From a virus, in the IMG/VR virus record IMGVR_UViG_3300030430_001863, positions 1-55,446 of that record: a stretch of 55,446 nt of DNA; one strand, 5' to 3'. Under the pieces are notes generated by a model. The model had not been told where the DNA came from and did no database searches. It saw only the letters and a program-made list of their open reading frames with translations. This document shows positions 29,226 to 42,608 of this stretch, piece after piece; positions within the stretch are counted from its first letter, which is position 1, and each line of letters opens with the position of its first letter. A program made the position numbers and the translations under genes.

Positions 29226-29890
29226 TGGCTACTTCAAACTCAAGGGACTTCGCTCTCGATGTTTCAGACATTATAGAAGAAGCATATGAAAGGTGTGGAT
29301 TAGAACTTCGCACTGGTTACGATGCTCGCACTGCACGCCGCTCTATGAACTTGATGTTTGCGGATTGGGCAAACAGAGGCGTTAATCTTTGGACTGTTCA
29401 ACAAAACACCATAACATTAACACAAGGACAAGCCACCGAAACGTTGACAAGCGATGTCGTTGATTTACTTGAAGTGGTTGTTAGAAGAAGCAATACTGAT
29501 ATCAATATTATGAAAGTTAGTCGTGGGGATTATTTGTCTGTTCCAGACAAGACAACACAAGGCCGTCCTAGTCAGTATTACTTCAATAGGCAAACAATTC
29601 CTCAGATAACTTTATGGCCTACTCCAGAAAACAGCACCGATCAGTTAGTGTATTATTATGTTCAAAGAATACAGGATGCTGACACGCTTACTAATGATGT
29701 AGACCTTCCTTTCCGTTTCTTACCCTGTGCTGTTGCTGGCTTATCATATTACATTGCATTAAAGAAGAATCCTCAACTGGTTCAGTTGTTAAAAACTGTT
29801 TATGAAGAAGAGTTTCAAAGAGCCGCTGACGAGGATGAAGATAGAGTATCTCTTAAACTACAACCTGATATTCAATATTTGAGGGTGTGA
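29225..29890 (+). CDS. Head-tail adaptor (P22 gp4-like candidate)
   Basis: The product is 221 residues from the ATG at 29225 (TGATG). It opens with helical sequence (DFALDVSDIIEEAYERCGLE, then RTARRSMNLMFADWANRGVN), contains SQYYFNRQTIPQITLWPTPE and ends in FLPCAVAGLSYYIALKK and a helical tail. This helix-bundle pattern matches tail accessory or gp4-type adaptors that bind beneath the portal. Role assigned by pattern and position. Confidence 0.65.
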   Translation: MATSNSRDFALDVSDIIEEAYERCGLELRTGYDARTARRSMNLMFADWANRGVNLWTVQQNTITLTQGQATETLTSDVVDLLEVVVRRSNTDINIMKVSRGDYLSVPDKTTQGRPSQYYFNRQTIPQITLWPTPENSTDQLVYYYVQRIQDADTLTNDVDLPFRFLPCAVAGLSYYIALKKNPQLVQLLKTVYEEEFQRAADEDEDRVSLKLQPDIQYLRV

Positions 29891-30687
29891 TGGCCTTTGC
29901 CTCTGGTAAAAATGCATATGGTATATCAGACCGTTCTGGCTTTCGTTATCGTTTACGAGATATGAAAACCGAATGGAATGGTTTAAAGGTAGGTCCAGAC
30001 GAGTATGAAGAGAAGCACCCACAACTGGAGCCTAGAAGAACTGTTATAGACCCGCAGGCACTAAGAGATCCTCGACCTGATACTAACAATATCATACCAG
30101 CAAAGGTTACTTTTCCATCTTTTAATACAGAAACTCTTCGGTTTACAGAACCTGTATTTATGCGTGGCAGAGTTGGCACAGTTACTTTTAGTGATGATGT
30201 TGTTACCCCAACAGGTGTCAGTGTTACCTTAACTGGTATCAGTGCAACAATATCTCTTAATTCTATAGTTACCCCTAATGCAACTGTTAATCTTACAGGC
30301 GTTAGCGCAACAACCTCCGTTGGTTCTGTAGGTGTATCTATTGACGGAGGTGTAGCTCAAATATTTACAGTAACAGTTGTCAGTACTGGTTATGGTAATA
30401 AGTACTACATAGATGGCGTGCAACAGGCTACAGTAACCTTATCTGAAGGCAGCACATATCGTTTTGATCAATCAGATTCCAGTAATTCAGGGCATCCTTT
30501 AAGATTTTCCACTACATCTAATGGCACACATGCTGGTGGCTTAGAATATACCACAGGAGTTTCTACAAGCGGTACTCCAGGTTCTTCAGGAGCCTACACA
30601 CAAATAACTGTAGATTCTGGCGCACCAACCCTTTATTATTACTGCACGAATCATTCTGGTATGGGCGGACAGGCAAATACACCATGA
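29890..30687 (+). CDS. Virion protein with Ig-like repeats and C-terminal cupredoxin-like domain
   Basis: The product is 265 residues. Residues 1-100 are a conserved module with DEYEEKHPQLEPRRTVIDPQ. Residues about 105-150 hold two copies of a TGVSVTLTGISATISL-type strand repeat. Residues 155-265 form a cupredoxin-like domain: YYIDGVQQATVTLSEGSTYR, H202 in GHPLRF, and C252, H255, M258 in YYCTNHSGMGG. That His-Cys-His-Met set is the type 1 copper ligand pattern. Whether it binds copper is unknown; it may act as a receptor-binding domain. Marine phage fibres carry similar domains. Confidence 0.7.
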   Translation: MAFASGKNAYGISDRSGFRYRLRDMKTEWNGLKVGPDEYEEKHPQLEPRRTVIDPQALRDPRPDTNNIIPAKVTFPSFNTETLRFTEPVFMRGRVGTVTFSDDVVTPTGVSVTLTGISATISLNSIVTPNATVNLTGVSATTSVGSVGVSIDGGVAQIFTVTVVSTGYGNKYYIDGVQQATVTLSEGSTYRFDQSDSSNSGHPLRFSTTSNGTHAGGLEYTTGVSTSGTPGSSGAYTQITVDSGAPTLYYYCTNHSGMGGQANTP

Positions 30688-32833: not shown

Positions 32834-32858
32834 GACATAGGGATTTTTTCCTATGTCT
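32833..32858 (+). promoter_or_regulatory. RNA hairpin covering the start codon of the 32853 gene
   Basis: AGACATAGG (32833-32841) pairs with CCTATGTCT (32850-32858) around GATTTTTT. The ATG at 32853-32855 is in the second arm and the only purine-rich site (AGGGA) is in the first arm or loop. It could lower translation of the repeat protein; the short T tail might also terminate some transcripts. Confidence 0.6.
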
Positions 32859-34253
32859 TTACAGCTTACAAGTCGCTTAATAAGCATACCCGCGCAGAAT
32901 GACGCGACTTGGACGCAGCGAACAGCGGATATATCTGCTTACATTGGTAAGCAGGCAAGAATTGTTGTACTTTATCAGTCTGGAAGCTCTTTTACAGGTG
33001 ACATCCAGCTTGATGATTTTAATATCGGCGGGAATAGTTTTACTGACTTCTCTTCAAGTCAGGGTTTTGAAACCAACGCCTCCGTTGATAATTCTCAAGT
33101 ATCTTCTGGAAATTTAGACTCCATAGCTTCTGAATATCCTGCTTCATGGGAAGCAGTGGGAACTTCTACTAGTGCTTCAGGCAAGTTTGTAAGGGATAGC
33201 GGCGGTACTCCTTCTAGCAATACGGGTAATACTTCTGGTAATACTGGTAGTTTTTACCTTTATGCGGAAACCAGTAGTGGTGGTAGCAACAATGATATTT
33301 GGCTTCGCTCTCCCGAAGTCACTATTAACAATGGCACTTTAGAGTTTTACTCCGCGCAAAACGGCGCGACTTCTGGTGCTATCTATGCTTACCTTGAAAT
33401 ATTAGGTGTTCTTGGCGTAAGCGCAACGGCGACAGCCCAAGGCACTAATGATGAGATACAGAGTTTTGGTGTATTTGTTCAGATACCCAATACGGCTAAT
33501 TCTGGATGGGGTCGAGGCACCTGGGGCGAAGGTGCGTGGAACAGCAGCACTGCTACTAATGTAAATGTTTCTGTAACTGCGGTAACCGCTACCAGTGCTT
33601 TAGGTTCAGAGTCCGTCACAGGTTCAGCAGGTATTGCCGTTACAGGACCGTCAGCTACCTCTGCCCTTGGCTCTATTGTCGTTCAAGCTGGTGGTGCCAT
33701 TTCCGTTGGTGGGCAGGCTGTTTCTGGTTCTGTTGGTTCTGTAACCTTAGAATCAAAGTACGCTGTTACGGGAGTAAGTGGTACAAGCACTGTTGGCGCG
33801 GAAGCCGTCACCGCAGGTGCTCTTGTAGTAGCTACAGGTCTTAGTTCTACAACAGCCATAGGAACAGTTTTAGCGGCTGGCGGTGCTGTTGTTGAAGAAA
33901 CAGGTCTCACTGGGTCTATAGGGTTTGGTGAAGAACAAGTTTCAGCCTCTGCTAACGTGTTTCCAACAGGGGTTTCTTCTACGGTATCTTTAGGTACAAT
34001 TAGCGTTTCTTGTGCCGCATCTACTTTAACAAGTGGACTACAAGCCACAACTTCTATTGGGGTCGTAGAAGTAGATGATATGGCTGTGGGTGTATCAGGA
34101 TTGCAAGCCACTACAAATACTGGTATTGTAACCGTGTGGGGCAGGATTGTCCCTGACCAAGATGCAAATGTACAGGAAATTGTGCCGTCTACGACTAACA
34201 CTTGGAGCGACATAACGGTTACAAGCACTCCAAATTGGAAAGAGGTAGCATAA
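32853..34253 (+). CDS. Fibre-like protein with C-terminal Ig-like strand repeats
   Basis: The product is 466 residues. The first 170 resemble a jelly-roll carbohydrate-binding region: AQNDATWTQRTADISAYIGK, SFTGDIQLDDFNIGG, NDIWLRSPEVTINNGTLEFY. A linker has SGWGRGTWGEGAWNSST. Residues about 230-445 are tandem repeats of about 20-25 residues with a TGVSSTVSLGTISV-type consensus, at least eight copies. The same repeats occur in the products at 29890, 40244 and 40725. Likely a receptor-facing fibre. Confidence 0.65.
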   Translation: MSLQLTSRLISIPAQNDATWTQRTADISAYIGKQARIVVLYQSGSSFTGDIQLDDFNIGGNSFTDFSSSQGFETNASVDNSQVSSGNLDSIASEYPASWEAVGTSTSASGKFVRDSGGTPSSNTGNTSGNTGSFYLYAETSSGGSNNDIWLRSPEVTINNGTLEFYSAQNGATSGAIYAYLEILGVLGVSATATAQGTNDEIQSFGVFVQIPNTANSGWGRGTWGEGAWNSSTATNVNVSVTAVTATSALGSESVTGSAGIAVTGPSATSALGSIVVQAGGAISVGGQAVSGSVGSVTLESKYAVTGVSGTSTVGAEAVTAGALVVATGLSSTTAIGTVLAAGGAVVEETGLTGSIGFGEEQVSASANVFPTGVSSTVSLGTISVSCAASTLTSGLQATTSIGVVEVDDMAVGVSGLQATTNTGIVTVWGRIVPDQDANVQEIVPSTTNTWSDITVTSTPNWKEVA

Positions 34254-34746: not shown

Positions 34747-35097
34747 ATGGCAAATACTTTTAAAGTAAAGACAAACAGTGCTATGCCAACTTCTGCTGGC
34801 ACACCTTTGACTTTATATACTGTACCAAGTTCAACAACTTCAGTTGTTCTTGGCTTGATGCTTTGTAACATTAACACCAGTCAGGTAACTGCGGATGTAC
34901 AACTTGTATCAGATACCTCAGACACTGAAACAAACGAAACTGTTTTTCTAGCAAAGGACATACCTATTCCAGCAGGTTCTTCTATAGAGCTGCTTGCGGG
35001 TAACAAAGTGGTTATGCAGACTACCGATGTGTTAAAGATAGACTGCGACACATCAGCTAAGATTGATGCGACTTTGAGTATTATGGAGATAACCTAA
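34747..35097 (+). CDS. Small beta-rich fibre-associated protein (116 aa)
   Basis: Sequence: TFKVKTNSAMPTSAGTPLTL, YTVPSSTTSVVLGLMLCNIN, IPIPAGSSIELLAGNKVVMQ. A compact beta sandwich seen in many marine phages next to fibre genes; function unknown. Stop overlaps the next ATG (TAATG). Confidence 0.65.
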   Translation: MANTFKVKTNSAMPTSAGTPLTLYTVPSSTTSVVLGLMLCNINTSQVTADVQLVSDTSDTETNETVFLAKDIPIPAGSSIELLAGNKVVMQTTDVLKIDCDTSAKIDATLSIMEIT

Positions 35098-35546
35098 TGC
35101 CTTATATTGGCGGCGTACCTGCGGTTAACTTTCAAAGCACTCCTTCAGTGCAACGGTTTAACGGTGACGGATCTGACACGACCTTTACCTTAAACACGAC
35201 TGTTAATTCTGTTCAGGACATACTCGTTTCAGTTGATGGTGTTGTTCAGGATAGCAACGCCTACACTGTTCCTGACGGCACAACACTTACCTTCACCGCC
35301 GCGCCGTCTAGCGGCACAGGAAACATCTTTGTAAACTACCTTGCGCCACAGGAAGGCACTATTGTCCCTGCCGCAGAAAACAAAGGTAATTTTAAGGTTG
35401 GGGGTCTGTTTAGAACAAATGCTCAAACTCTTGCTACAAACACAACTATTCTGTCCACAGAAAACGCTAACGTAACAGGACCACTTACCATCAACTCAGG
35501 TGTTACCCTGACTGTTGAAAGCGGTGGTACATTGGTGACGCTATGA
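35097..35546 (+). CDS. Tail fibre-type protein with T7-fibre-like opening (149 aa)
   Basis: It opens PYIGGVPAVNFQSTPSVQRF and FNGDGSDTTFTLNTTVNSVQ, then LVSVDGVVQDSNAYTVPDGT: the attachment-type domain found at the start of many podovirus fibres. Ends in a beta-helix-like segment (LTINSGVTLTVESGG). As a stand-alone short gene it may attach separate fibre cassettes to the tail. Confidence 0.65.
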   Translation: MPYIGGVPAVNFQSTPSVQRFNGDGSDTTFTLNTTVNSVQDILVSVDGVVQDSNAYTVPDGTTLTFTAAPSSGTGNIFVNYLAPQEGTIVPAAENKGNFKVGGLFRTNAQTLATNTTILSTENANVTGPLTINSGVTLTVESGGTLVTL

Positions 35547-35911
35547 GTACCTTAAAAGCAGATACAATCGTAGCAAGTGATGGTAGCAGCCCTGTAACGC
35601 TGACTAAGCAACATGCGGCAAAAGTCTGGATTCAGTTTGCTATGGGTACGCCTACAATCCAGAGCAGTTTTAATATCTCTAGCATGACGGATACGGGAAC
35701 TGGTGATGCGGCAGCTAACATAACAAACGCCTTTGGTTCAGCAACTGGATACTCTTTAACTGGTGGCGGCAATCATTACACTTTAGGCAATGATGTTGTT
35801 GATAACGATTCAGCCTCGGTTATTTCTTACAGACAGTTCGACAATTCTGCAGCAGCAGCTGATGGGGGTGGCACTAACTGCTCAATGACAGCGCACGGAG
35901 ACCTAGCATGA
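35543..35911 (+). CDS. GDLA-family tail cassette 1
   Basis: 122 residues. Opens STLKADTIVASDGSSPVTLT, has TKQHAAKVWIQFAMGTPTIQ, then SSFNISSMTDTGTGDAAANI and ends GDLA. Shares its middle pattern (SFN-x-SS-x-TD-x-GTGD) and end with six other genes in this region. Likely a beta-rich tail tip or fibre subunit. The last codons (GGAGACCTAGCATGAG, from 35897) also supply the ribosome site and overlapping ATG of the next gene. Confidence 0.7.
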   Translation: MSTLKADTIVASDGSSPVTLTKQHAAKVWIQFAMGTPTIQSSFNISSMTDTGTGDAAANITNAFGSATGYSLTGGGNHYTLGNDVVDNDSASVISYRQFDNSAAAADGGGTNCSMTAHGDLA

Positions 35912-36291
35912 GTACCCTTCTTGTAAACACGCTCACTGGTACAAGCACTGCTGGCTCTATCTCTGTTACAGGCGAAGGTAACAGCACAACAACTAATCTT
36001 CAGCAGGGGTTGGCGAAGGCTTGGTCATGTATTGACGGTATAGGCACGATAAACTTGCGTGATAGCTTTAACACGGCGAGTCTGACAGATAACGGCACAG
36101 GAGATTACACAGCTACATATTCATCTGCAATGAACAACGATGATTACGCCCACCCACTTGGCGCGTCTGTTGGAAGTGATTTTGTATTTAGTAGTGCTAC
36201 TACTAACATAAGAATTAAACCATTTAGCGTAGGTGGTAATCAAGCTGATTGTGACCCAGAAACATTTGCAATATTTGGAGACTTAGCGTAA
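35908..36291 (+). CDS. GDLA-family tail cassette 2
   Basis: 127 residues. STLLVNTLTGTSTAGSISVT, then GEGNSTTTNLQQGLAKAWSC, RDSFNTASLTDNGTGDYTAT, YSSAMNNDDYAHPLG and terminal FGDLA. Closest relative in the window is cassette 5 (39013), which shares GEGNSTTTNLQQGLAK and the MNNDDYA segment. Ends with an embedded ribosome site from 36277. Confidence 0.7.
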   Translation: MSTLLVNTLTGTSTAGSISVTGEGNSTTTNLQQGLAKAWSCIDGIGTINLRDSFNTASLTDNGTGDYTATYSSAMNNDDYAHPLGASVGSDFVFSSATTNIRIKPFSVGGNQADCDPETFAIFGDLA

Positions 36292-36668
36292 TGGCTGGAA
36301 AAATTGTAGCAGACCAGTTAGAACACAGCACCGCAGGGTCGGTTGATACGCAGTATGTTGTCAAGGGTAGTGCGAAACATATGGTGTGGGCAGATACTAA
36401 TACTTCTAATACCATAAGAAAATCTCTTAATAACAGCTCTATTACAGACAATGGAACTGGAGACTACACTTTCGTAGCGACCTCTGCTTTTTCTGATATT
36501 TATAGTTATGTAGGCTGTTGTACTGGTTCGGCTAGTGACCCAAATGCGTCTGGTGAAAATGGTTCAATTTATACAACAACATCATCTTGTACGTTTATAA
36601 CACAAGATTACAACGGGTCTACTGGCGATGCAGATTTAACTTTTTTAAGTGTTGGGGACTTAGCATAA
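36291..36668 (+). CDS. GDLA-family tail cassette 3
   Basis: 125 residues. AGKIVADQLEHSTAGSVDTQ, KHMVWADTNTSNTIRKSLNN, SSITDNGTGDYTFVATSAFS, and end VGDLA. The N-terminus differs from the other cassettes, while the middle and end match. The final codons start GGGGAC rather than GGAGAC. Precedes a non-family gene. Confidence 0.7.
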   Translation: MAGKIVADQLEHSTAGSVDTQYVVKGSAKHMVWADTNTSNTIRKSLNNSSITDNGTGDYTFVATSAFSDIYSYVGCCTGSASDPNASGENGSIYTTTSSCTFITQDYNGSTGDADLTFLSVGDLA

Positions 36669-37144
36669 TGGAAACACCTGAATTTCAAGGCACACACTTA
36701 TGGGACAGACTGTGCTGGGCAAAAGAAAACCTTGAGCCGCATCAGTCTGAGTATCGTGTCGTGTATGAAGACAGTATAGACGAGTGCGCCAAGATACTCG
36801 TGCCAGACCCTAATTGGATGGCCTGTGCATTGCAGGGTGGCATCCTACCACCAGTATGGGTGTATTGGGAGCTTGCCAAAGACGAAGCACAGCCAGACTT
36901 CAAGAAGCATACTCGTGGCTATCTCTTGCATAACACAGAGCCTGTTGAGGCTATGACAGAGGAGCAAGCCTTAGAATATCTCATAATGAAAGACTGCCCA
37001 CAACATGTTTGGCGTGAGTGGGATAGCGGTAACAAGCCAAAACTGGTAATATGCAAAAAAGAACAGCTTCCAGCAACAAGAGAGTGGCGTAATGCTTGGA
37101 AGATTAGTGAAGACCTAGCCACTGATAAAACTGTAGCCGCATAA
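36668..37144 (+). CDS. Conserved phage protein (158 aa), acidic
   Basis: Start chosen at 36668, overlapping the previous stop (TAATG). It opens ETPEFQGTHLWDRLCWAKEN, continues YRVVYEDSIDECAKILVPDP, NWMACALQGGILPPVWVYWE, and ends PQHVWREWDSGNKPKLVICK, KEQLPATREWRNAW. I recall this as conserved in T4-like and marine phages without known role. Its non-fibre composition inside the fibre block suggests a chaperone or assembly factor. Confidence 0.65.
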   Translation: METPEFQGTHLWDRLCWAKENLEPHQSEYRVVYEDSIDECAKILVPDPNWMACALQGGILPPVWVYWELAKDEAQPDFKKHTRGYLLHNTEPVEAMTEEQALEYLIMKDCPQHVWREWDSGNKPKLVICKKEQLPATREWRNAWKISEDLATDKTVAA

Positions 37145-37155
37145 GGAGTAACCCA

Positions 37156-37527
37156 ATGGCAACAACTTATATTGTAGATAAGGACGGCAATCAGGTTGAT
37201 GCCTCAACTGTTACCGTTCCATCAGACCGTCATTTTCGTGGAGCATGGACTTTGAATGGCAAAGTCATCTCTGAAGATATGACAAAAGCAAAAGAAATCT
37301 TCAAGGACAAGATCCGTGAAGTTCGTGCGCCTCTGCTTGATGCAGAAGACGTAGTGTACATGAAGGCACTAGAGGCTGACAATGCAACCGCAAAGACTGC
37401 TTCTGTAAACAAGAAGAAAGCACTTCGTGATGCGCCTGCTGCAAAAGCAATTACTGATGCAGACACAATCGCAAAGCTGAAGGCAGCTTGGGATACAGAC
37501 GTACTTGGTGCTAGCCCTTACGCATAA
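37156..37527 (+). CDS. Putative tail fibre assembly-type protein (123 aa)
   Basis: TTYIVDKDGNQVDASTVTVP, DRHFRGAWTLNGKVISEDM, KAKEIFKDKIREVRAPLLDA, then a helical Ala/Lys-rich end. The DRHFRGAW opening and R-x-x-R-x-PLL-D helix resemble phage proteins near fibre genes, some acting in fibre assembly. AAGGAG precedes the ATG. Confidence 0.6.
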   Translation: MATTYIVDKDGNQVDASTVTVPSDRHFRGAWTLNGKVISEDMTKAKEIFKDKIREVRAPLLDAEDVVYMKALEADNATAKTASVNKKKALRDAPAAKAITDADTIAKLKAAWDTDVLGASPYA

Positions 37528-37560
37528 GCGTAGGGGTTATCCCTTTCGGAGTATAGGTAG

Positions 37561-38130
37561 ATGGCGTTAACTAAAGTAGACCCTGTTCATGGAATTGATT
37601 TAGCGGACAAAGAATACTTTCACGTTGATTTAACAACCCTGCAAGGTAGCTTAACTGACAACACAACCGTCACTGTAGATTTTGGGGGTAGTGGTACAGT
37701 TAAGTATGATACTAAATCAAAATTTGATTCTTCAAACGATGCTTATCTATTAGGTAGCAGTGACGGTGTTTATTTAATTAGTTACAGTGTGGGCATATCT
37801 TCTACTACTACAAATACTGAGCAAATAGTTGACCACGGTGTCCAAGTACAAGTTGCTACAGATGGTTCAACCTTTGCTTCAATACAGGGCAATAGCGGTC
37901 ATCTTCAAGATAATGCTGGTGGTGAATACGGTTCTTTAACAGAATCTGGTGCTTTTATTTACAAAGCAACAACTGCTACAACAAAAGTTAGATTACAAGC
38001 CTATGCCAACATGGTAAGTTCTGGAACTTGGAAAATAGGTGAAGATATAAATGCCATACTAGCTTCCTCTTTAGTGACAGGTGGAGATGATGCTCGTGTT
38101 ACGTTTTTATCGATAGTGAGGGTTGCATAA
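37561..38130 (+). CDS. Jelly-roll (C1q/TNF-like) tail fibre-type protein
   Basis: 189 residues, beta-rich: EYFHVDLTTLQGSLTDNTTV, SDGVYLISYSVGISSTTTNT, YKATTATTKVRLQAYANMVS, DARVTFLSIVRVA. The alternation and final ARVTFLSIVRV strand fit a C1q/TNF-like jelly roll used by phage fibres for trimerisation and receptor binding. Last residues overlap the next ATG. Confidence 0.6.
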   Translation: MALTKVDPVHGIDLADKEYFHVDLTTLQGSLTDNTTVTVDFGGSGTVKYDTKSKFDSSNDAYLLGSSDGVYLISYSVGISSTTTNTEQIVDHGVQVQVATDGSTFASIQGNSGHLQDNAGGEYGSLTESGAFIYKATTATTKVRLQAYANMVSSGTWKIGEDINAILASSLVTGGDDARVTFLSIVRVA

Positions 38131-38588
38131 TGCCATACATAGGTAAATCCCCAGAGTTCGGTGTTCGCAACCGCTTCGTTTATCAAGCAACTGCTAGTCA
38201 GACTACCTTTAGTGGCAGCGACGGTGACAGTAAGACACTGACCTACACAGATAGTCTGTACATGGATGTGTATCAAAACGGTGTTCTTCTCAAGCCTGGG
38301 ACTGATTATGCCGCTACAACAGGCACCAGCGTTGTTTTGGTAACAGCCGCTACTTTGAACGACATTGTTGAGATGGTTGTGTATGACACGTTTGCCGTGG
38401 CTAGTTCGTATACTAAGACTGAAAGTGATACCCGCTACCCATTTAAGGGCAACAACAGCATCATCCGTCTAAATGGTCAGACCATCAGCGCGGACATCAC
38501 TATTGATAGCGATGAGAACGGCATATCGGCAGGACCAATCACACAGTCCGCTACCGTGACTGTTAACGGGTATTGGAGCATTGTATGA
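38130..38588 (+). CDS. Tail fibre attachment-type protein (152 aa)
   Basis: PYIGKSPEFGVRNRFVYQAT, TFSGSDGDSKTLTYTDSLYM, DVYQNGVLLKPGTDYAATTG, VEMVVYDTFAVASSYTK, then VNGYWSIV. This opening and the Y-x-NGVLL-x-PGTDY segment are typical of marine podovirus fibre starts. It precedes the second GDLA array as 35097 precedes the first. Confidence 0.65.
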   Translation: MPYIGKSPEFGVRNRFVYQATASQTTFSGSDGDSKTLTYTDSLYMDVYQNGVLLKPGTDYAATTGTSVVLVTAATLNDIVEMVVYDTFAVASSYTKTESDTRYPFKGNNSIIRLNGQTISADITIDSDENGISAGPITQSATVTVNGYWSIV

Positions 38589-39013
38589 CCAGTGTATTGA
38601 ATGTAGATACTATTGCAGATAAGGCTGGCACTGGCCCTGTTGCATTGACTAAGCAACAGGCCGCTAAACATTGGGTTAACTATGATGCTGTCAACCAAAC
38701 AACAGATGGGTCATTCAATCAGAGCAGTTTGACTGATAATGCGGAAGGTGATTTTACTAGCACTTATACTAACGGATTATCTAGTGCTACTGATAAGTGT
38801 ATCATGACTAACACTTTTAACACCGTAAATGACGGTGCTAGTGGCAATTCAGGAGATACTAGGGGCGGTAGTAATTCAGACCAAGCGGGGGATAGTTCTC
38901 AGTCTGCATCTTTAATTAACTTTCACACTTATTACGGATCTAATGGTAGTTCAAATGGGGCTAAGGAAGATCACAATGGCTCGTATTGCATGACTGTAGG
39001 AGACCTAGCATAA
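38585..39013 (+). CDS. GDLA-family tail cassette 4
   Basis: 142 residues from ATG 38585 (ATGA). TSVLNVDTIADKAGTGPVAL, TKQQAAKHWVNYDAVNQTTD, GSFNQSSLTDNAEGDFTSTY, and end VGDLA. Closest to cassette 1 in the P-VTLTKQ-x-AAK opening. The C-terminal half is Asn/Ser/Gly-rich. Ribosome-site end from 38999. Confidence 0.7.
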   Translation: MTSVLNVDTIADKAGTGPVALTKQQAAKHWVNYDAVNQTTDGSFNQSSLTDNAEGDFTSTYTNGLSSATDKCIMTNTFNTVNDGASGNSGDTRGGSNSDQAGDSSQSASLINFHTYYGSNGSSNGAKEDHNGSYCMTVGDLA

Positions 39014-39429
39014 TGGCAAGCATACTTAAAGTAGACACAATTACAGGTGTAGCTACCGCTGGGTCTATTGCGATTACTGGCGAGGGTAACTCGACCACGA
39101 CTAACTTGCAGCAGGGGTTGGCAAAGTCTTGGATTAATGTAAAGGGTACTGGCACGGCTAGCAGCGACATGATACGCGATTCTTTCAACATTAGTTCGGA
39201 CACCGACAACGGCACAGGAAACTATACTTTTGCGTTCTCTTCAAATATGAACAATGATGATTATGCTGCAGGTTCTGGGGTAAGTGGGTCTACAGATGCT
39301 GGTAATTTTAATCCCGCAGGAATTTGTAACAGAACAACTAGTAATTATGTAATGGATATAGAAAATGCTAGTAGCGTTGGAACTGACCCTGGCATAGGAG
39401 ATGCAACAATTTTTGGAGACCTCGCGTAA
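39013..39429 (+). CDS. GDLA-family tail cassette 5
   Basis: 138 residues. ASILKVDTITGVATAGSIAI, TGEGNSTTTNLQQGLAKSWI, RDSFNISSDTDNGTGNYTFA, FSSNMNNDDYAAGSG, and end FGDLA. Near-identical segments to cassette 2 (GEGNSTTTNLQQGLAK, MNNDDYA). Embedded ribosome site from 39415. Confidence 0.7.
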   Translation: MASILKVDTITGVATAGSIAITGEGNSTTTNLQQGLAKSWINVKGTGTASSDMIRDSFNISSDTDNGTGNYTFAFSSNMNNDDYAAGSGVSGSTDAGNFNPAGICNRTTSNYVMDIENASSVGTDPGIGDATIFGDLA

Positions 39430-39812
39430 TGGCAAGCGAACTGAGAGTAAACACCTTAAAAGATAGTGCAGGTAACAACTCCATTGGCATGAGCTTTGTT
39501 GCAGGGGGAACTGCAAAAGTAACAGGAAACTTGCAAGAAGATGCTAGTAGCAATTCTACAGTTTCAATGAACATATCGAGTGTTACTGATGGCTCTGCTG
39601 GATTAAATACTGTTGCAGTTAGCACTGCCTTTACTGGGGCTTTGGCTGTAGCAGCTTTAATTAGCAATCACGATAGTAGCTATAATCGGACTCATACAGT
39701 TGATGATACAAGTGCATCTTCATTTATTACCCGTGCTGTTACCGCATCAGGTGGCACACTTACTGATACAAATGCCGCACATTCAATAGCGTTTTTTGGA
39801 GATCTAGCATGA
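39429..39812 (+). CDS. GDLA-family tail cassette 6
   Basis: 127 residues. ASELRVNTLKDSAGNNSIGM, SFVAGGTAKVTGNLQEDASS, SMNISSVTDGSAGLNTVAVS, ending FFGDLA. More diverged in the middle but keeps the N-terminal V-x-TLK-D pattern and the end. Embedded ribosome site from 39798 (GGAGATCTAGCATGAG). Confidence 0.65.
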   Translation: MASELRVNTLKDSAGNNSIGMSFVAGGTAKVTGNLQEDASSNSTVSMNISSVTDGSAGLNTVAVSTAFTGALAVAALISNHDSSYNRTHTVDDTSASSFITRAVTASGGTLTDTNAAHSIAFFGDLA

Positions 39813-40243
39813 GTAGAGCCGCAGACTTAGCCGCCCTGATTGTTGACGTCAACACTACAGAGGCGAAAACAGACGAGCTTACTGGCAAGACCACTGCTAG
39901 TTCTATTGCTGTAACTGCTGAAGGCGGTAGCACAACCACAACCTTGCAACAGGGATTGGCGAAGGCTTTTTCAAATTTTAATGGTCTTGCTGGTACAGTT
40001 GCTTTTGCTGATAGTTTTAATTACTCATCTGTAACAGACAACACAACTGGTGATTTTAATTTAAGTTTTACTAATAATATGGGAAGTGCACTTTATGCTG
40101 TAGGAATTTCCTGTACGTTTTTTAATGGGATATATAGTGGGGGTGTGGCGGCTGCTAGCATTAGAATTTTTACTTCTAACGCTTCTGGCACGTTGCAAGA
40201 TAGAGACGATACGACAACTTCAATTCATGGAGACCTCGCATAA
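39809..40243 (+). CDS. GDLA-family tail cassette 7
   Basis: 144 residues with a longer N-terminus (SRAADLAALIVDVNTTEAKT), then TTASSIAVTAEGGSTTTTLQ, QGLAKAFSNFNGLAG, ADSFNYSSVTDNTTGDFNLS and end HGDLA. Related to cassettes 2 and 5 in STTT-x-LQQGLAK. The final codons (from 40229) place a ribosome site before the hub gene at 40244. Confidence 0.7.
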   Translation: MSRAADLAALIVDVNTTEAKTDELTGKTTASSIAVTAEGGSTTTTLQQGLAKAFSNFNGLAGTVAFADSFNYSSVTDNTTGDFNLSFTNNMGSALYAVGISCTFFNGIYSGGVAAASIRIFTSNASGTLQDRDDTTTSIHGDLA

Positions 40244-40717
40244 ATGCCTTTAACCAAGCTACAGTTCAAACCTGGAGTGGTTAAAGACACAACAGCTTAC
40301 TCAAACGAAGGTGGGTGGGTTGACAGTGACCTCATACGTTTTAGGTTTGGTTATCCTGAAAAAATAGGTGGGTGGGAGTCTCGTACAAACGATACAATAG
40401 TTGGTACGCCAAGAGCTTTGCATTCATGGCAGTCTCTAAATAACACGCCGTTTATTGGTATTGGTACGCATCAAAAGTATTACATTGAGAGTAGCGGTAA
40501 TATTTTTAATATTACTCCCATTAGAACAACTTTTATGATTCCTGCTAAACCCACAGGTAATCAGGCGACAACTTCGTTAGGAACTGTTACAGTAGAAACA
40601 GAAAACTTCCAGAGTGCGCTGCTTTCTAATGTTACAGGGCTTGTTGGAAACCTACAAATTAACTTCTACGTTACAGCTACGGCCTCTGTTGGAAATGTTA
40701 CTGTAACAACTTCATAG
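40244..40717 (+). CDS. Tail hub / DNA-stabilisation-type protein, N-terminal part of a split gene
   Basis: 157 residues. PLTKLQFKPGVVKDTTAYSN, EGGWVDSDLIRFRFGYPEKI, GGWESRTNDTIVGTPRALHS, IGIGTHQKYYIESSGN and NITPIRT match the first about 100 residues of a large marine podovirus tail protein. The sequence then enters Ig-like repeats (TTSLGTVTVETENF) and stops at TAG 40715-40717. The rest of the protein is the next gene, in a different frame with its own start. Probably both chains associate; a decayed gene is the alternative. Confidence 0.7.
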   Translation: MPLTKLQFKPGVVKDTTAYSNEGGWVDSDLIRFRFGYPEKIGGWESRTNDTIVGTPRALHSWQSLNNTPFIGIGTHQKYYIESSGNIFNITPIRTTFMIPAKPTGNQATTSLGTVTVETENFQSALLSNVTGLVGNLQINFYVTATASVGNVTVTTS

Positions 40718-40724
40718 GTGAGTC

Positions 40725-42608
40725 ATGGCTGATATTACTGTTTCCGCGTCAGGCTTATCTTCTACCAGTTCTATAGGAACAGTTACGCTTCCTGGTGCAA
40801 TAAATGTCATTGCTGTTACAGGGGTGTCTTCTGCTGGCTCCATCGGGACGGCTAGAGCACCTGGTGCAATAAATGTTTTTCCTGTAACTAGCCCTGCTTT
40901 AACCTCTTCTTTGAACAGTGTTTCGGCTTCAGGCAACATTAGCATTCCTGTAACAGGCTTTTCTCTTACATCTACAGCGGGTAATCCGCGTATTGTTACC
41001 GTAATACTGACAGGTGTTTCAGCTAGCACAACACTTGGCTCGGCAGTGGCTCAAGTCGGTGTTGTTTTAGGCAGCAACCTTACTTTTTCAACTACTCAAG
41101 ACAGCACAACCGTTACTGTAAGCCACTCCAGTCATGGCGCGACTACAGGAGACTATATAACTATTTCTGACGCTAATTTTGGTGGGCTGTACACAACCTT
41201 AGTTGGCTTGTTAAACGGTGAGCATACTATAACTGTTATAGATGATGGATCTTATACCTTTACCATCGCTCAAGGCGCAGAAGTGTCTTTGTTAAATTCT
41301 GGCGAAGCTAATGTAGCTTATGAAATAACCCCTGGCTTAGACAATGTTGTTGGTGGGTATGGCTGGGGTGCAGGAACATGGGGCAGGAATGGCTGGAACG
41401 AACCAGCCGACACACTTGCTACAAATCAGCTACGGTTTTGGAAGCACGACAATTTTGGTGAAGACCTTATCTTTAACATTCGTGGCGGTAGAATATATTA
41501 TTGGGATGCCACAACAGGGTTTACTGAACGTGCTAGAGATATAAGTTTCTATTCTACCAGTGCGCCTATTGCTGCAAATCAAGTTCTTGTTTCAGACAGA
41601 GATCGTCATGTTATTGCTGTTGGTACAAACGCTATTGGCTCAAATGATTTAGACCCATTGCTTGTGCGCTTTAGTTCACAAGAGAATCCTTTTGATTGGA
41701 CGCCCACGGCAACAAATACCGCAGGTGATTTAAGGATAGGAAATGGTTCAGAAATAGTACAAGCAGTAGAAACTCGCCGTGAGGTTCTTTTAATTACGGA
41801 TAGTTCTGTGCATTCAATGCAATTTATTGGTCCTCCTTTTACTTTTGGAATTACACAGTTGTCAAATCAAACGACCATTCGCGGGGTTAACGCTGCGGTA
41901 GCTGTTGGCGATGCTGTTTTTTGGATGGGTGTGGATCGTTTCTATCTTTATGATGGTCGTGTTCAACCATTGCCTTGTACGTTAAGAGACTACATCTTTG
42001 ATGATTTTGATGAGCAACAAGCTAATAAAGTTTTTGCTGGATCTAATGCAGCCTTTGGTGAAGTCTTTTGGTTTTACCCTTCCGAAACAGGGTCTGGTGA
42101 GAACAACCGATATGTTGTTTACAACTACGAGCAAAAAATTTGGTATCATGGAAACCTTGAAAGAACAGCTTGGCTTGATCGTGGTATAAACGACTTCCCG
42201 TTAGCTACCACCTCTGCCTCAAACACATCTTACCCAAGTAAGCTATATGATCACGAGATTGGCTCTGATGCTGACGGTGTGGCTATATCATCATTTATAG
42301 AGTCTGCGCCGATTGATATTGGTGATGGTGACAGCTTCTTGTTTATTCGCCGCATGATACCTGATGTAAACTTTGACAGATCTACATCTACTGCAACAAA
42401 AGAAGCAACTATAACGCTCAAGTCACAACGCTCTCCTGCAGGTGGATTTACAACTTCTAAGGCTTTAACAGTTACTGACACAACAGAACAGAACCATACA
42501 AGACTAAGAGGAAGGTCTTTTGGTTTGAGGATAGAATCCGATAACTTGGGTGTGGCTTGGAGACTTGGTTCTCCTCGTTTGGAAATACAACAGGACGGTA
42601 AACGATGA
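40725..42608 (+). CDS. Tail hub / DNA-stabilisation-type protein, C-terminal part of a split gene
   Basis: 627 residues. Residues 1-115 are Ig-like repeats (ITVSASGLSSTSSIGTVTLP and relatives). The body then continues the canonical protein: TVTVSHSSHGATTGDYITIS, GAGTWGRNGWNEPADTLATN, DRHVIAVGTNAIGSNDLDPL, SSQENPFDWTPTATNTAGDL, then AVFWMGVDRFYLYDGRVQPL and a C-terminal beta domain. AGGTGAG lies ahead of its ATG. Function is inferred from place among adaptor and internal virion genes: closing the tail channel or retaining packaged DNA. Confidence 0.7.
   Translation: MADITVSASGLSSTSSIGTVTLPGAINVIAVTGVSSAGSIGTARAPGAINVFPVTSPALTSSLNSVSASGNISIPVTGFSLTSTAGNPRIVTVILTGVSASTTLGSAVAQVGVVLGSNLTFSTTQDSTTVTVSHSSHGATTGDYITISDANFGGLYTTLVGLLNGEHTITVIDDGSYTFTIAQGAEVSLLNSGEANVAYEITPGLDNVVGGYGWGAGTWGRNGWNEPADTLATNQLRFWKHDNFGEDLIFNIRGGRIYYWDATTGFTERARDISFYSTSAPIAANQVLVSDRDRHVIAVGTNAIGSNDLDPLLVRFSSQENPFDWTPTATNTAGDLRIGNGSEIVQAVETRREVLLITDSSVHSMQFIGPPFTFGITQLSNQTTIRGVNAAVAVGDAVFWMGVDRFYLYDGRVQPLPCTLRDYIFDDFDEQQANKVFAGSNAAFGEVFWFYPSETGSGENNRYVVYNYEQKIWYHGNLERTAWLDRGINDFPLATTSASNTSYPSKLYDHEIGSDADGVAISSFIESAPIDIGDGDSFLFIRRMIPDVNFDRSTSTATKEATITLKSQRSPAGGFTTSKALTVTDTTEQNHTRLRGRSFGLRIESDNLGVAWRLGSPRLEIQQDGKR

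Follow-up and report, generated by a model that had tools for sequence, protein, structure and literature searches.

We conclude that the tail locus analyzed here probably encodes an array of tail adhesins built from docking peptides and swappable heads, a reading to which we give a probability of about 0.7. The window, meaning the whole stretch of 55,446 nucleotides (IMG/VR record IMGVR_UViG_3300030430_001863), comes from a relative of the marine virus Puniceispirillum phage HMO-2011. It encodes a DNA polymerase (phrog_17 match) and carries a tail locus of the HMO-2011 type, with stem 1, PEFQ, YIV and stem 2 in order together with cassettes ending in GDLA. Scanning genome contigs with stem 2 found no prophage relatives or host. 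The comparison set comprised 720 distinct cassettes from approximately 220 IMG/VR loci and HMO-2011; the cassette counts given below are no unbiased census, because the loci were chosen by similarity to window proteins.

The original prediction, made from the window alone, listed seven genes ending in GDLA, and all seven open reading frames were found at the listed starts. These overlapping genes have 122-144 codons each. Every cassette protein consists of a position-specific N-terminal header (~26-52 residues, the last being a conserved Lys) and a body (~90-115 residues) that contains the beta-sandwich, GDLA and the ribosome site. The features of the locus are as follows.

35097..35546, + strand: stem 1, truncated T7-type tail-fiber anchor protein, 149 aa, upstream of slot A (PF03906, E 5.2e-7; phrog_18673 tail fiber, E 9.7e-38)
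35543..35623, + strand: slot A header (MSTLKADTI...QHAAK), header class A, dN/dS 0.11
35624..35911, + strand: slot A body, GDLA end; GGAG ribosome site at 35897, ATGA overlap with next gene
35908..36018, + strand: slot C header, left array (MSTLLVNTLTG...STTTNLQQGLAK)
36019..36291, + strand: slot C body, left array, GDLA end; ribosome site at 36277, TAATG
36291..36377, + strand: slot E header (MAGKIVADQLEHSTAGS...GSAK)
36378..36668, + strand: slot E body, GDLA end; GGGGAC variant at 36654, TAATG
36668..37144, + strand: PEFQ protein, 158 aa, no family found; lies immediately downstream of slot E, F, D or I
38130..38588, + strand: stem 2 (MPYIGKSP), 152 aa, upstream of slot B (phrog_18345 tail fiber, E 3.3e-5)
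38585..38668, + strand: slot B header (MTSVLNVDTIADKAGTGPVALTKQQAAK)
38669..39013, + strand: slot B body, GDLA end; ribosome site at 38999, TAATG
39013..39126, + strand: slot C header, right array (MASILKVDTITG...STTTNLQQGLAK); modeled with one short helical turn, otherwise without regular secondary structure
39127..39429, + strand: slot C body, right array; modeled as an eight-strand beta-sandwich, GDLA past the last strand
39429..39518, + strand: slot D header (MASELRVNTLKDSAG...GGTAK)
39519..39812, + strand: slot D body, GDLA end
39809..39964, + strand: stacked header, an I-type tag (MSRAADLAALI) and then a C-type header (...STTTTLQQGLAK)
39965..40243, + strand: last body, GDLA end; ribosome site at 40229, TAA abutting the ATG of the next tail gene

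Two motifs had been proposed for the seven proteins, one as frequent and one as shared, and the sequences call for small corrections to both. The header motif STTTNLQQGLAK is exact in two genes (35908 and 39013), with the variant STTTTLQQGLAK in the gene at 39809. Variants of SFN-x-SS-x-TD-x-GTGD occur in most of the genes, the gene at 39429 being very divergent.

A role of the cassette proteins as tail adhesins is likely from sequence comparisons. Six of the seven match the PHROG_11355 'tail fiber protein' profile (E 9.1e-10 to 2.9e-18), and the 39429 gene matches it weakly (E 0.076). No Pfam family matched the cassettes, and a PDB sequence search with the family profile gave no match. One body was modeled as a monomer, with a pLDDT of 78.7 for the alignment-based prediction and 31 for the single-sequence prediction. 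The model is a beta-sandwich with GDLA beyond its last strand. Against predicted viral proteins it returned 59 structural matches at E<=0.001, several of them named tail fibers; matches to solved structures were weak, the best being the phiAB6 tailspike (E 0.028), followed by the R1 pyocin fiber (E 0.37) and the H-type lectin Helix pomatia agglutinin (E 0.41). The heads are probably lectin-like. These weak matches would also fit decoration or stabilizing proteins of the virion that diversified for some other reason, such as to evade surface decoys. We consider this unlikely, as the genes follow a T7-type fiber anchor and carry a PHROG tail-fiber annotation, relatives lie inside long tail fibers, and extreme turnover is limited to the bodies.

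Comparison of the family sequences shows that the codons for the final GDLA contain the next gene's ribosome site. The pattern GG[AG]GA[CT][CT]TNGC[AG]T matches exactly seven times in the 55 kb window (35897, 36277, 36654, 38999, 39415, 39798 and 40229), every one at the end of a cassette gene, and none on the opposite strand. GGAGA, originally reported for these terminal codons, is present in six genes, whereas the site at 36654 reads GGGGA. The accompanying claim that each stop overlaps or abuts the next ATG is correct at all seven junctions: an ATGA overlap (-4) follows 35911 and 39812, a TAATG overlap (-1) follows 36291, 36668, 39013 and 39429, and TAA directly abuts ATG, with no overlap, after 40243. 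Stem 2 has its own GGAG ribosome site within the codons of its terminal YWSIV. The proposed double use of the terminal codons as a Shine-Dalgarno sequence extends to the relatives, where a GGAG-type site is present in 97% of overlaps after family genes, compared to 53% after other overlapping genes and 6% of random windows. GDLA ends 654 of 704 unique family members, and all 920 open reading frames that end in GDLA belong to the cassette family. Its Gly codon is GGA in 629 of 645 cases (97.5%), compared to 17-18% in long open reading frames of the same phages. Exceptions to GDLA that keep the site include GELA (GGAGAA), GGLA (GGAGGC) and most GSLA (GGGAGT) ends; SDLA ends have TAGGAGATATG instead. 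Most exceptions retain GGAG or carry it farther downstream.

These data bear on whether GDLA is instead a conserved protein element, serving docking, assembly or as a trimer lock, with an incidental ribosome site. Confinement of GDLA to the cassette family agrees with that explanation, and some protein-level constraint is likely because Leu is retained despite variation in its codon (CTC, TTA, CTA, CTT). Against it, internal Gly-Asp pairs of the same bodies read GGAGAY in only 36% of cases, changes of the Asp mostly retain GGAG or shift the site downstream, and GDLA follows the last strand of the model. Because the next gene overlaps 671 of 695 array cassettes (-1 or -4), GDLA was tested in four distant homologues outside such arrays, and it is absent from them. 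PotUPM1 has the C-terminus FFGGR, encoded with GGAGG ahead of TAATG. We therefore regard a primarily protein-level role as unlikely and read GDLA as largely the translation of a ribosome site. Synonymous constraint continues past GGAG (CTC 47% vs 8%; GAC 88% vs 44%), a feature for which ribosome binding alone is insufficient as an explanation.

Comparison across loci shows that headers and bodies behave as separate evolutionary modules in their sequences. Headers follow the nearly fixed order stem1-A-C-E-PEFQ...stem2-B-C-D-(I), with header A directly after stem 1 in 73 of 75 cases and B or B2 directly after stem 2 in 107 of 110. They are under strong purifying selection (dN/dS 0.09-0.20); the bodies too are under purifying selection. 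The I tag of ~14 residues is retained on several sequence-distinct bodies and is also fused to the PEFQ protein. Header conservation could partly reflect hitch-hiking on the backbone instead of docking. Bodies are diverse: 697 cassettes fall into 510 body clusters (60% identity), and the compared loci give a Chao1 lower bound of ~1,370 for the pool of head types. Comparing cassettes among relatives, as originally suggested, showed that the bodies are not fixed as the header order is; between genomes 85-98% identical in the neighboring PEFQ gene, 1,329 of 1,339 bodies differ and headers are still 83-90% identical.

Related bodies recur behind different headers. Using coarser header classes than those of the junction comparison, 65 of 127 multi-member body clusters were found behind at least two classes. 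Of 140 related-body pairs left after dereplication, 103 join different header classes (random expectation 118±4). The right-array slot C body (39127..39429) recurs in L090/L008, where it follows an I header (90%), and in L009, where it follows an E header (87%). The slot D body (39519..39812) likewise follows an A header in L090/L008 (89%) and in L087 an E header (86%). In 73 cross-header pairs with body identity of at least 85%, DNA identity is 0.45 earlier in the gene, 0.70 over the last 15 nt through the Lys codon and 0.90 just past it; at the stop it drops from 0.89 to 0.39. Median breakpoints lie -7 nt from the end of the Lys codon and -2 nt from the end of the stop. The alignments show that bodies have moved from one header type to another; the breaks fall close to the conserved AK codons and to the terminal GGAGACCTnGCAT word.

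The original prediction had the complete gene as the unit duplicated, lost or swapped. Some exchanges do have this form: C-D-I and C-E runs changed arrays in L008, and contig L006 differs from the window by complete left-hand cassettes, being 99.5% identical from exactly 36654 onward with different cassettes upstream. As the main mode, whole-gene exchange is improbable and largely refuted by the identity step at the Lys codon inside genes; the near-fixed header order also speaks against it. Bodies at least 60% identical make up only 2 of 1,360 within-contig cassette pairs, so recent tandem duplication was rejected as the source of the cassettes. What moves is mainly the C-terminal body, bounded by the AK-x-W junction and the terminal word, or else an entire cassette run behind a stem.

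Assembly chimeras have a negligible probability of explaining the shuffled combinations. Both header C and the terminal word are repeats, at which short-read assemblers would be expected to break; against this, identical DNA at cross-header 5' junctions typically spans 3-8 nt (90th percentile 12), well under usual assembly word sizes. Chimerism was rejected on the cultured isolate HMO-2011, which shows the same reassortment: for three of its five bodies, the closest relative follows a header of a different class (92, 81 and 61%).

The conserved short word at every body end resembles a recombination site, as might be expected if an on-board diversity system (diversity-generating retroelement, DNA inversion or integrase) shuffled the heads. 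Of the GGAGACCTnGCAT copies, 608 stand at family gene ends and 20 elsewhere on that strand, with none on the other strand; on this distribution a chi-like or inverted site was rejected. The heads of one genome are also mutually unrelated, and the window, which may be an incomplete record, has no match to a reverse transcriptase (RVT_1, PF00078), Resolvase/serine recombinase (PF00239) or Phage_integrase (PF00589). Such a system is very improbable. No RecT or ERF family match was found in the window either. Since no dedicated recombinase was found, exchange probably results from ordinary phage recombination, acting at very short homologies when relatives co-infect, with selection filtering the outcome.

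In the adhesin array that we favor, two stem (anchor) proteins are each followed by three or four small subunits, whose headers would act as position-specific docking peptides that dock in order on the stem. The heads would bind cell-surface receptors, probably glycans, and host-driven selection may lie behind their turnover. Termination-reinitiation may hold subunit amounts in balance. The ribosome site sits in the body end, which upholds the expectation that parts could be exchanged without loss of the next gene's translation start; because each body brings its site along, it can be placed ahead of any header, with the next start 7-10 nt downstream of GGAG. The idea of a modular store of receptor-binding or tail-tip variants stands as regards the likely adhesin role; a silent store is not borne out, because all the genes are in frame, overlapping and under purifying selection in headers and bodies. 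More tentatively, at somewhat less than even odds, each virion may carry six to eight different small heads, with N-terminal address tags defining the position of each, and such an array would constitute a distinct class of phage host-recognition apparatus. Heads would then come from a large shared pool, interchangeable across positions and viruses through a standard translation connector.

HMO-2011 (NC_021864) has the same locus at gp28-gp41, annotated mostly as 'tail fiber protein', with the same stems, header order and ribosome-site arrangement and five GDLA cassettes, but its bodies differ almost completely from those of the window. A term search of HMO-2011-type literature (PMC6918029, PMC9038755, PMC8528129) found no description of header/body shuffling. 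In anchor-branched receptor-binding protein systems (K1-5, G7C, KP32, CBA120), a T7-like anchor carries binding proteins on short conserved N-terminal peptides, and C-terminal modules are swapped (PMC6872550). The window resembles these in the N-terminal virion-anchor match of stem 1 (PF03906) and in its conserved headers and swapped bodies, both resemblances being at the sequence level; a T4 gp10-like docking domain had no Pfam match in stem 1 or stem 2. Those systems carry 1-4 large spikes, whereas the window encodes six or seven tiny proteins in two arrays, and its one-family heads, unlike theirs, move between positions. Variable receptor-binding parts flanked by conserved motifs have been described as segments within one protein (PMC12892980); here whole heads are exchanged across many genes, and the 3' boundary doubles as a ribosome site. 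Domain shuffling of phage receptor-binding proteins is a general principle in which protein fragments are exchanged (PMC10684548), whereas exchange here is between defined array positions, with fixed junctions and a built-in translation signal. Gene pairs with -1/-4 overlaps (termination-reinitiation) are enriched for subunits of heteromeric complexes (PMC10666635); the overlap type is the same in the window, but its coupling signal travels with an exchangeable domain.

The locus is a clear natural example of a conserved C-terminal peptide that is, as we read it, mostly a translated ribosome site, and it advises caution when assigning function to such motifs. HMO-2011-type phages are described as belonging to the most abundant and widespread groups of marine viruses (PMC9038755). 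If the reading is true, their host recognition would be assembled from standard parts: fixed addresses, a large head pool and a DNA connector that both bounds the exchanged unit on its 3' side and serves the next gene as its ribosome site. This would provide a testable account of how several adhesins change while the operon stays intact, and head repertoires in metagenomes could be read as a record of host-range evolution.

The original prediction of seven tail genes ending in GDLA (starting at 35543, 35908, 36291, 38585, 39013, 39429 and 39809) was confirmed for all seven at these coordinates. The GGAGA end motif also claimed for them is present in six; the remaining gene has GGGGA instead, at 36654. 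Exactly seven copies of the terminal DNA word exist in the window, one at each of these gene ends, with none on the opposite strand. Junctions to the next gene consist of two ATGA overlaps, four TAATG overlaps and one abutting TAA-ATG. Six of the seven proteins match PHROG_11355 "tail fiber protein", and gene 35097 (stem1), just before the array, contains a T7 tail-fibre N-terminal domain. The related Puniceispirillum phage HMO-2011 carries the same locus as this IMG/VR record, but with five GDLA cassettes. The predicted structure of the 39013 protein (108 homologues, pLDDT 78.7) comprises an extended N-terminal part and an eight-strand beta-sandwich, with GDLA placed after the last strand. 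Among predicted structures, it closely matches small proteins of marine phages and portions of long tail fibres; matches to solved structures are weak, though of a consistent kind (phiAB6 tailspike, R-pyocin fibres and H-type lectins).

Several neighboring features were also observed. The conserved genes at 36668-37144 (PEFQ) and 37156-37527 (YIV) lie between both arrays in most relatives and match no Pfam family; PEFQ, which is 82-97% identical among the 80 best contigs, could be a chaperone or a structural fibre component. Two window ORFs in different frames (40244-40717 and 40725-42608) form a single 622-residue tail-protein ORF in three related loci (L088, L095 and L100). The split also occurs in L008 and is conserved in this lineage, possibly reflecting frameshifting or insertion of repeat domains. 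Several tail-region proteins (29887-30687, 32853-34253 and 40725-42608) contain VTGVSATTSVGSV-type repeats that resemble one another; these are probably Ig-like or fibre repeats that have passed from one gene to another. Two genes at 768-2113 match the otherwise uncharacterised Pam3 phage gp34-like and gp33-like families (PF23977, PF23984).

Viral contigs were scanned three times, with the 39013, PEFQ and stem2 proteins as queries; with HMO-2011 and the window added, this yielded 227 loci, including some overlapping views of a single contig. The window genes were used to build a profile, which identified 1,007 family ORFs, of which 704 are unique and complete, and start assignment gave 720 distinct cassette DNAs; loci were picked for their similarity, header classes and gene starts were assigned heuristically, and the sequences are phylogenetically non-independent.

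The claim that the DNA of the last codons doubles as a Shine-Dalgarno sequence was borne out across this set. GDLA ends 654 of the 704 family ORFs, and all GDLA-ending ORFs belong to the family. At these ends Gly is encoded by GGA in 629/645, versus 17.6% across the long ORFs of these loci; within bodies GGA makes up 29% of Gly codons, and internal Gly-Asp is GGAGAY in 36%. The following ATG lies at -1 or -4 in 671/695, and GGAG/GAGG/AGGA precedes the start in 97% of family overlaps, versus 53% of other overlapping genes in the same phages and 6% of random windows. The exceptions are instructive: GELA is encoded with GGAGAA (or GGGGAG), GGLA with GGAGGC and GSLA mostly with GGGAGT, and where Ser-Asp replaces Gly-Asp the site is found again downstream of the stop as TAGGAGATATG. 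Four distant homologues outside such arrays lack the GDLA end; one of them, PotUPM1, ends in FFGGR, encoded with GGAGG ahead of TAATG. Because of this codon bias, the overlap sites, the exceptions and the distant homologues, we conclude that the terminal Gly-Asp is for the most part a ribosome site read as codons. Leu and Ala may be under protein-level constraint as well. Codon bias extends past GGAG (CTC 47% vs 8%), which ribosome binding leaves unexplained; exchange at the terminal word, shared ancestry of 3' ends, or both could account for it. It is established from other systems that -1/-4 overlaps allow termination-reinitiation and that genes overlapping in this way encode subunits of complexes more often than expected (PMC10666635).

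One Lys is near-invariant in the profile alignment (684/719), and the proteins were divided there into an N-terminal header and a body. Headers fall into about 10 common classes (dN/dS 0.09-0.20), and bodies into 510 clusters among 697 cassettes at 60% identity. Header order follows a near-fixed grammar across loci: stem1 is followed by A (73/75) and stem2 by B or B2 (107/110); C usually comes after A and B, D or E usually comes after C, and the PEFQ gene usually comes after E. Slot C can also be occupied by a body annotated as C1q, or by another kind, preceded by a C-like header, and at 39809-39964 an I-type tag and a C-type header are stacked within one protein. The best sequence argument that headers serve as address or docking tags comes from the tag of slot I (MSKAAELAALIG), which has about 14 residues. 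It is retained on family bodies, on several body types of distinct sequence (about 170-190 and 330-370 residues) and, shortened to MSKAAELAA, on the PEFQ protein, to which it is joined directly, immediately after a GDLA cassette, in three related loci:

L071, 2346-2843: I tag-PEFQ fusion
L057, 2786-3286: I tag-PEFQ fusion
L141, 2395-2895: I tag-PEFQ fusion

Bodies are exchanged between headers. Body DNA of random pairs is no more alike within classes (identity 0.596) than across them (0.593), and 103/140 related-body pairs among dereplicated cassettes join different header classes, versus 118±4 under random labels. Among 73 pairs that cross classes and whose bodies are 85% identical or more, DNA identity climbs over the Lys codon (0.45, 0.70, 0.90) and drops at the stop from 0.89 to 0.39. 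The median breakpoint lies at -7 nt relative to the end of the Lys codon on one side and at -2 nt relative to the end of the stop on the other. Of these pairs, 33/73 have unlike stop codons, versus 2/96 same-class pairs. At the 5' junction the exact match usually spans 3-8 nt. The 39013 body (slot C) occurs elsewhere behind I (90%) and E (87%) headers, and the 39429 body (slot D) behind A (89%) and E (86%) headers. For three of the five HMO-2011 bodies the nearest relative lies behind another header class, and assembly artefact is therefore ruled out as the general cause of the shuffling.

In pairs whose neighboring PEFQ gene is 85-98% identical, 1,329/1,339 slot bodies differ (headers there are 83-90% identical), and at PEFQ identity of at least 98%, 99/104 are the same; at stem2 identity of at least 98%, 20/50 are already replaced. 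The pairs in all these counts are non-independent, and several loci come from one contig or from contigs that are almost identical. Exchange also involves whole cassette runs. Starting exactly at the terminal word at 36654, the window is 99.5% identical to L006, with different cassettes upstream; identity between L088 and L091 is 99.8% until near the end of header B, with different bodies beyond; and in L008, C-D-I and C-E runs are swapped to other arrays.

Swapping of receptor-binding modules is already known (PMC10684548, PMC12892980). Relative to it, the position-tagged array, the free exchange of heads and the ribosome site carried by the head appear new: no description of this combination was found, including by a term search of HMO-2011-type papers, in a search that lay mostly outside the subscription literature and does not prove absence. 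No dedicated recombinase was found among the families tested. In other podoviruses, short conserved N-terminal peptides hold, or are modelled to hold, secondary binding proteins (PMC6872550). In these modular arrays, with their exchanged bodies, ordered headers and built-in ribosome sites, headers would dock on the stems and heads would bind receptors; exchange would proceed via general recombination during co-infection, and host selection may drive the turnover of heads.
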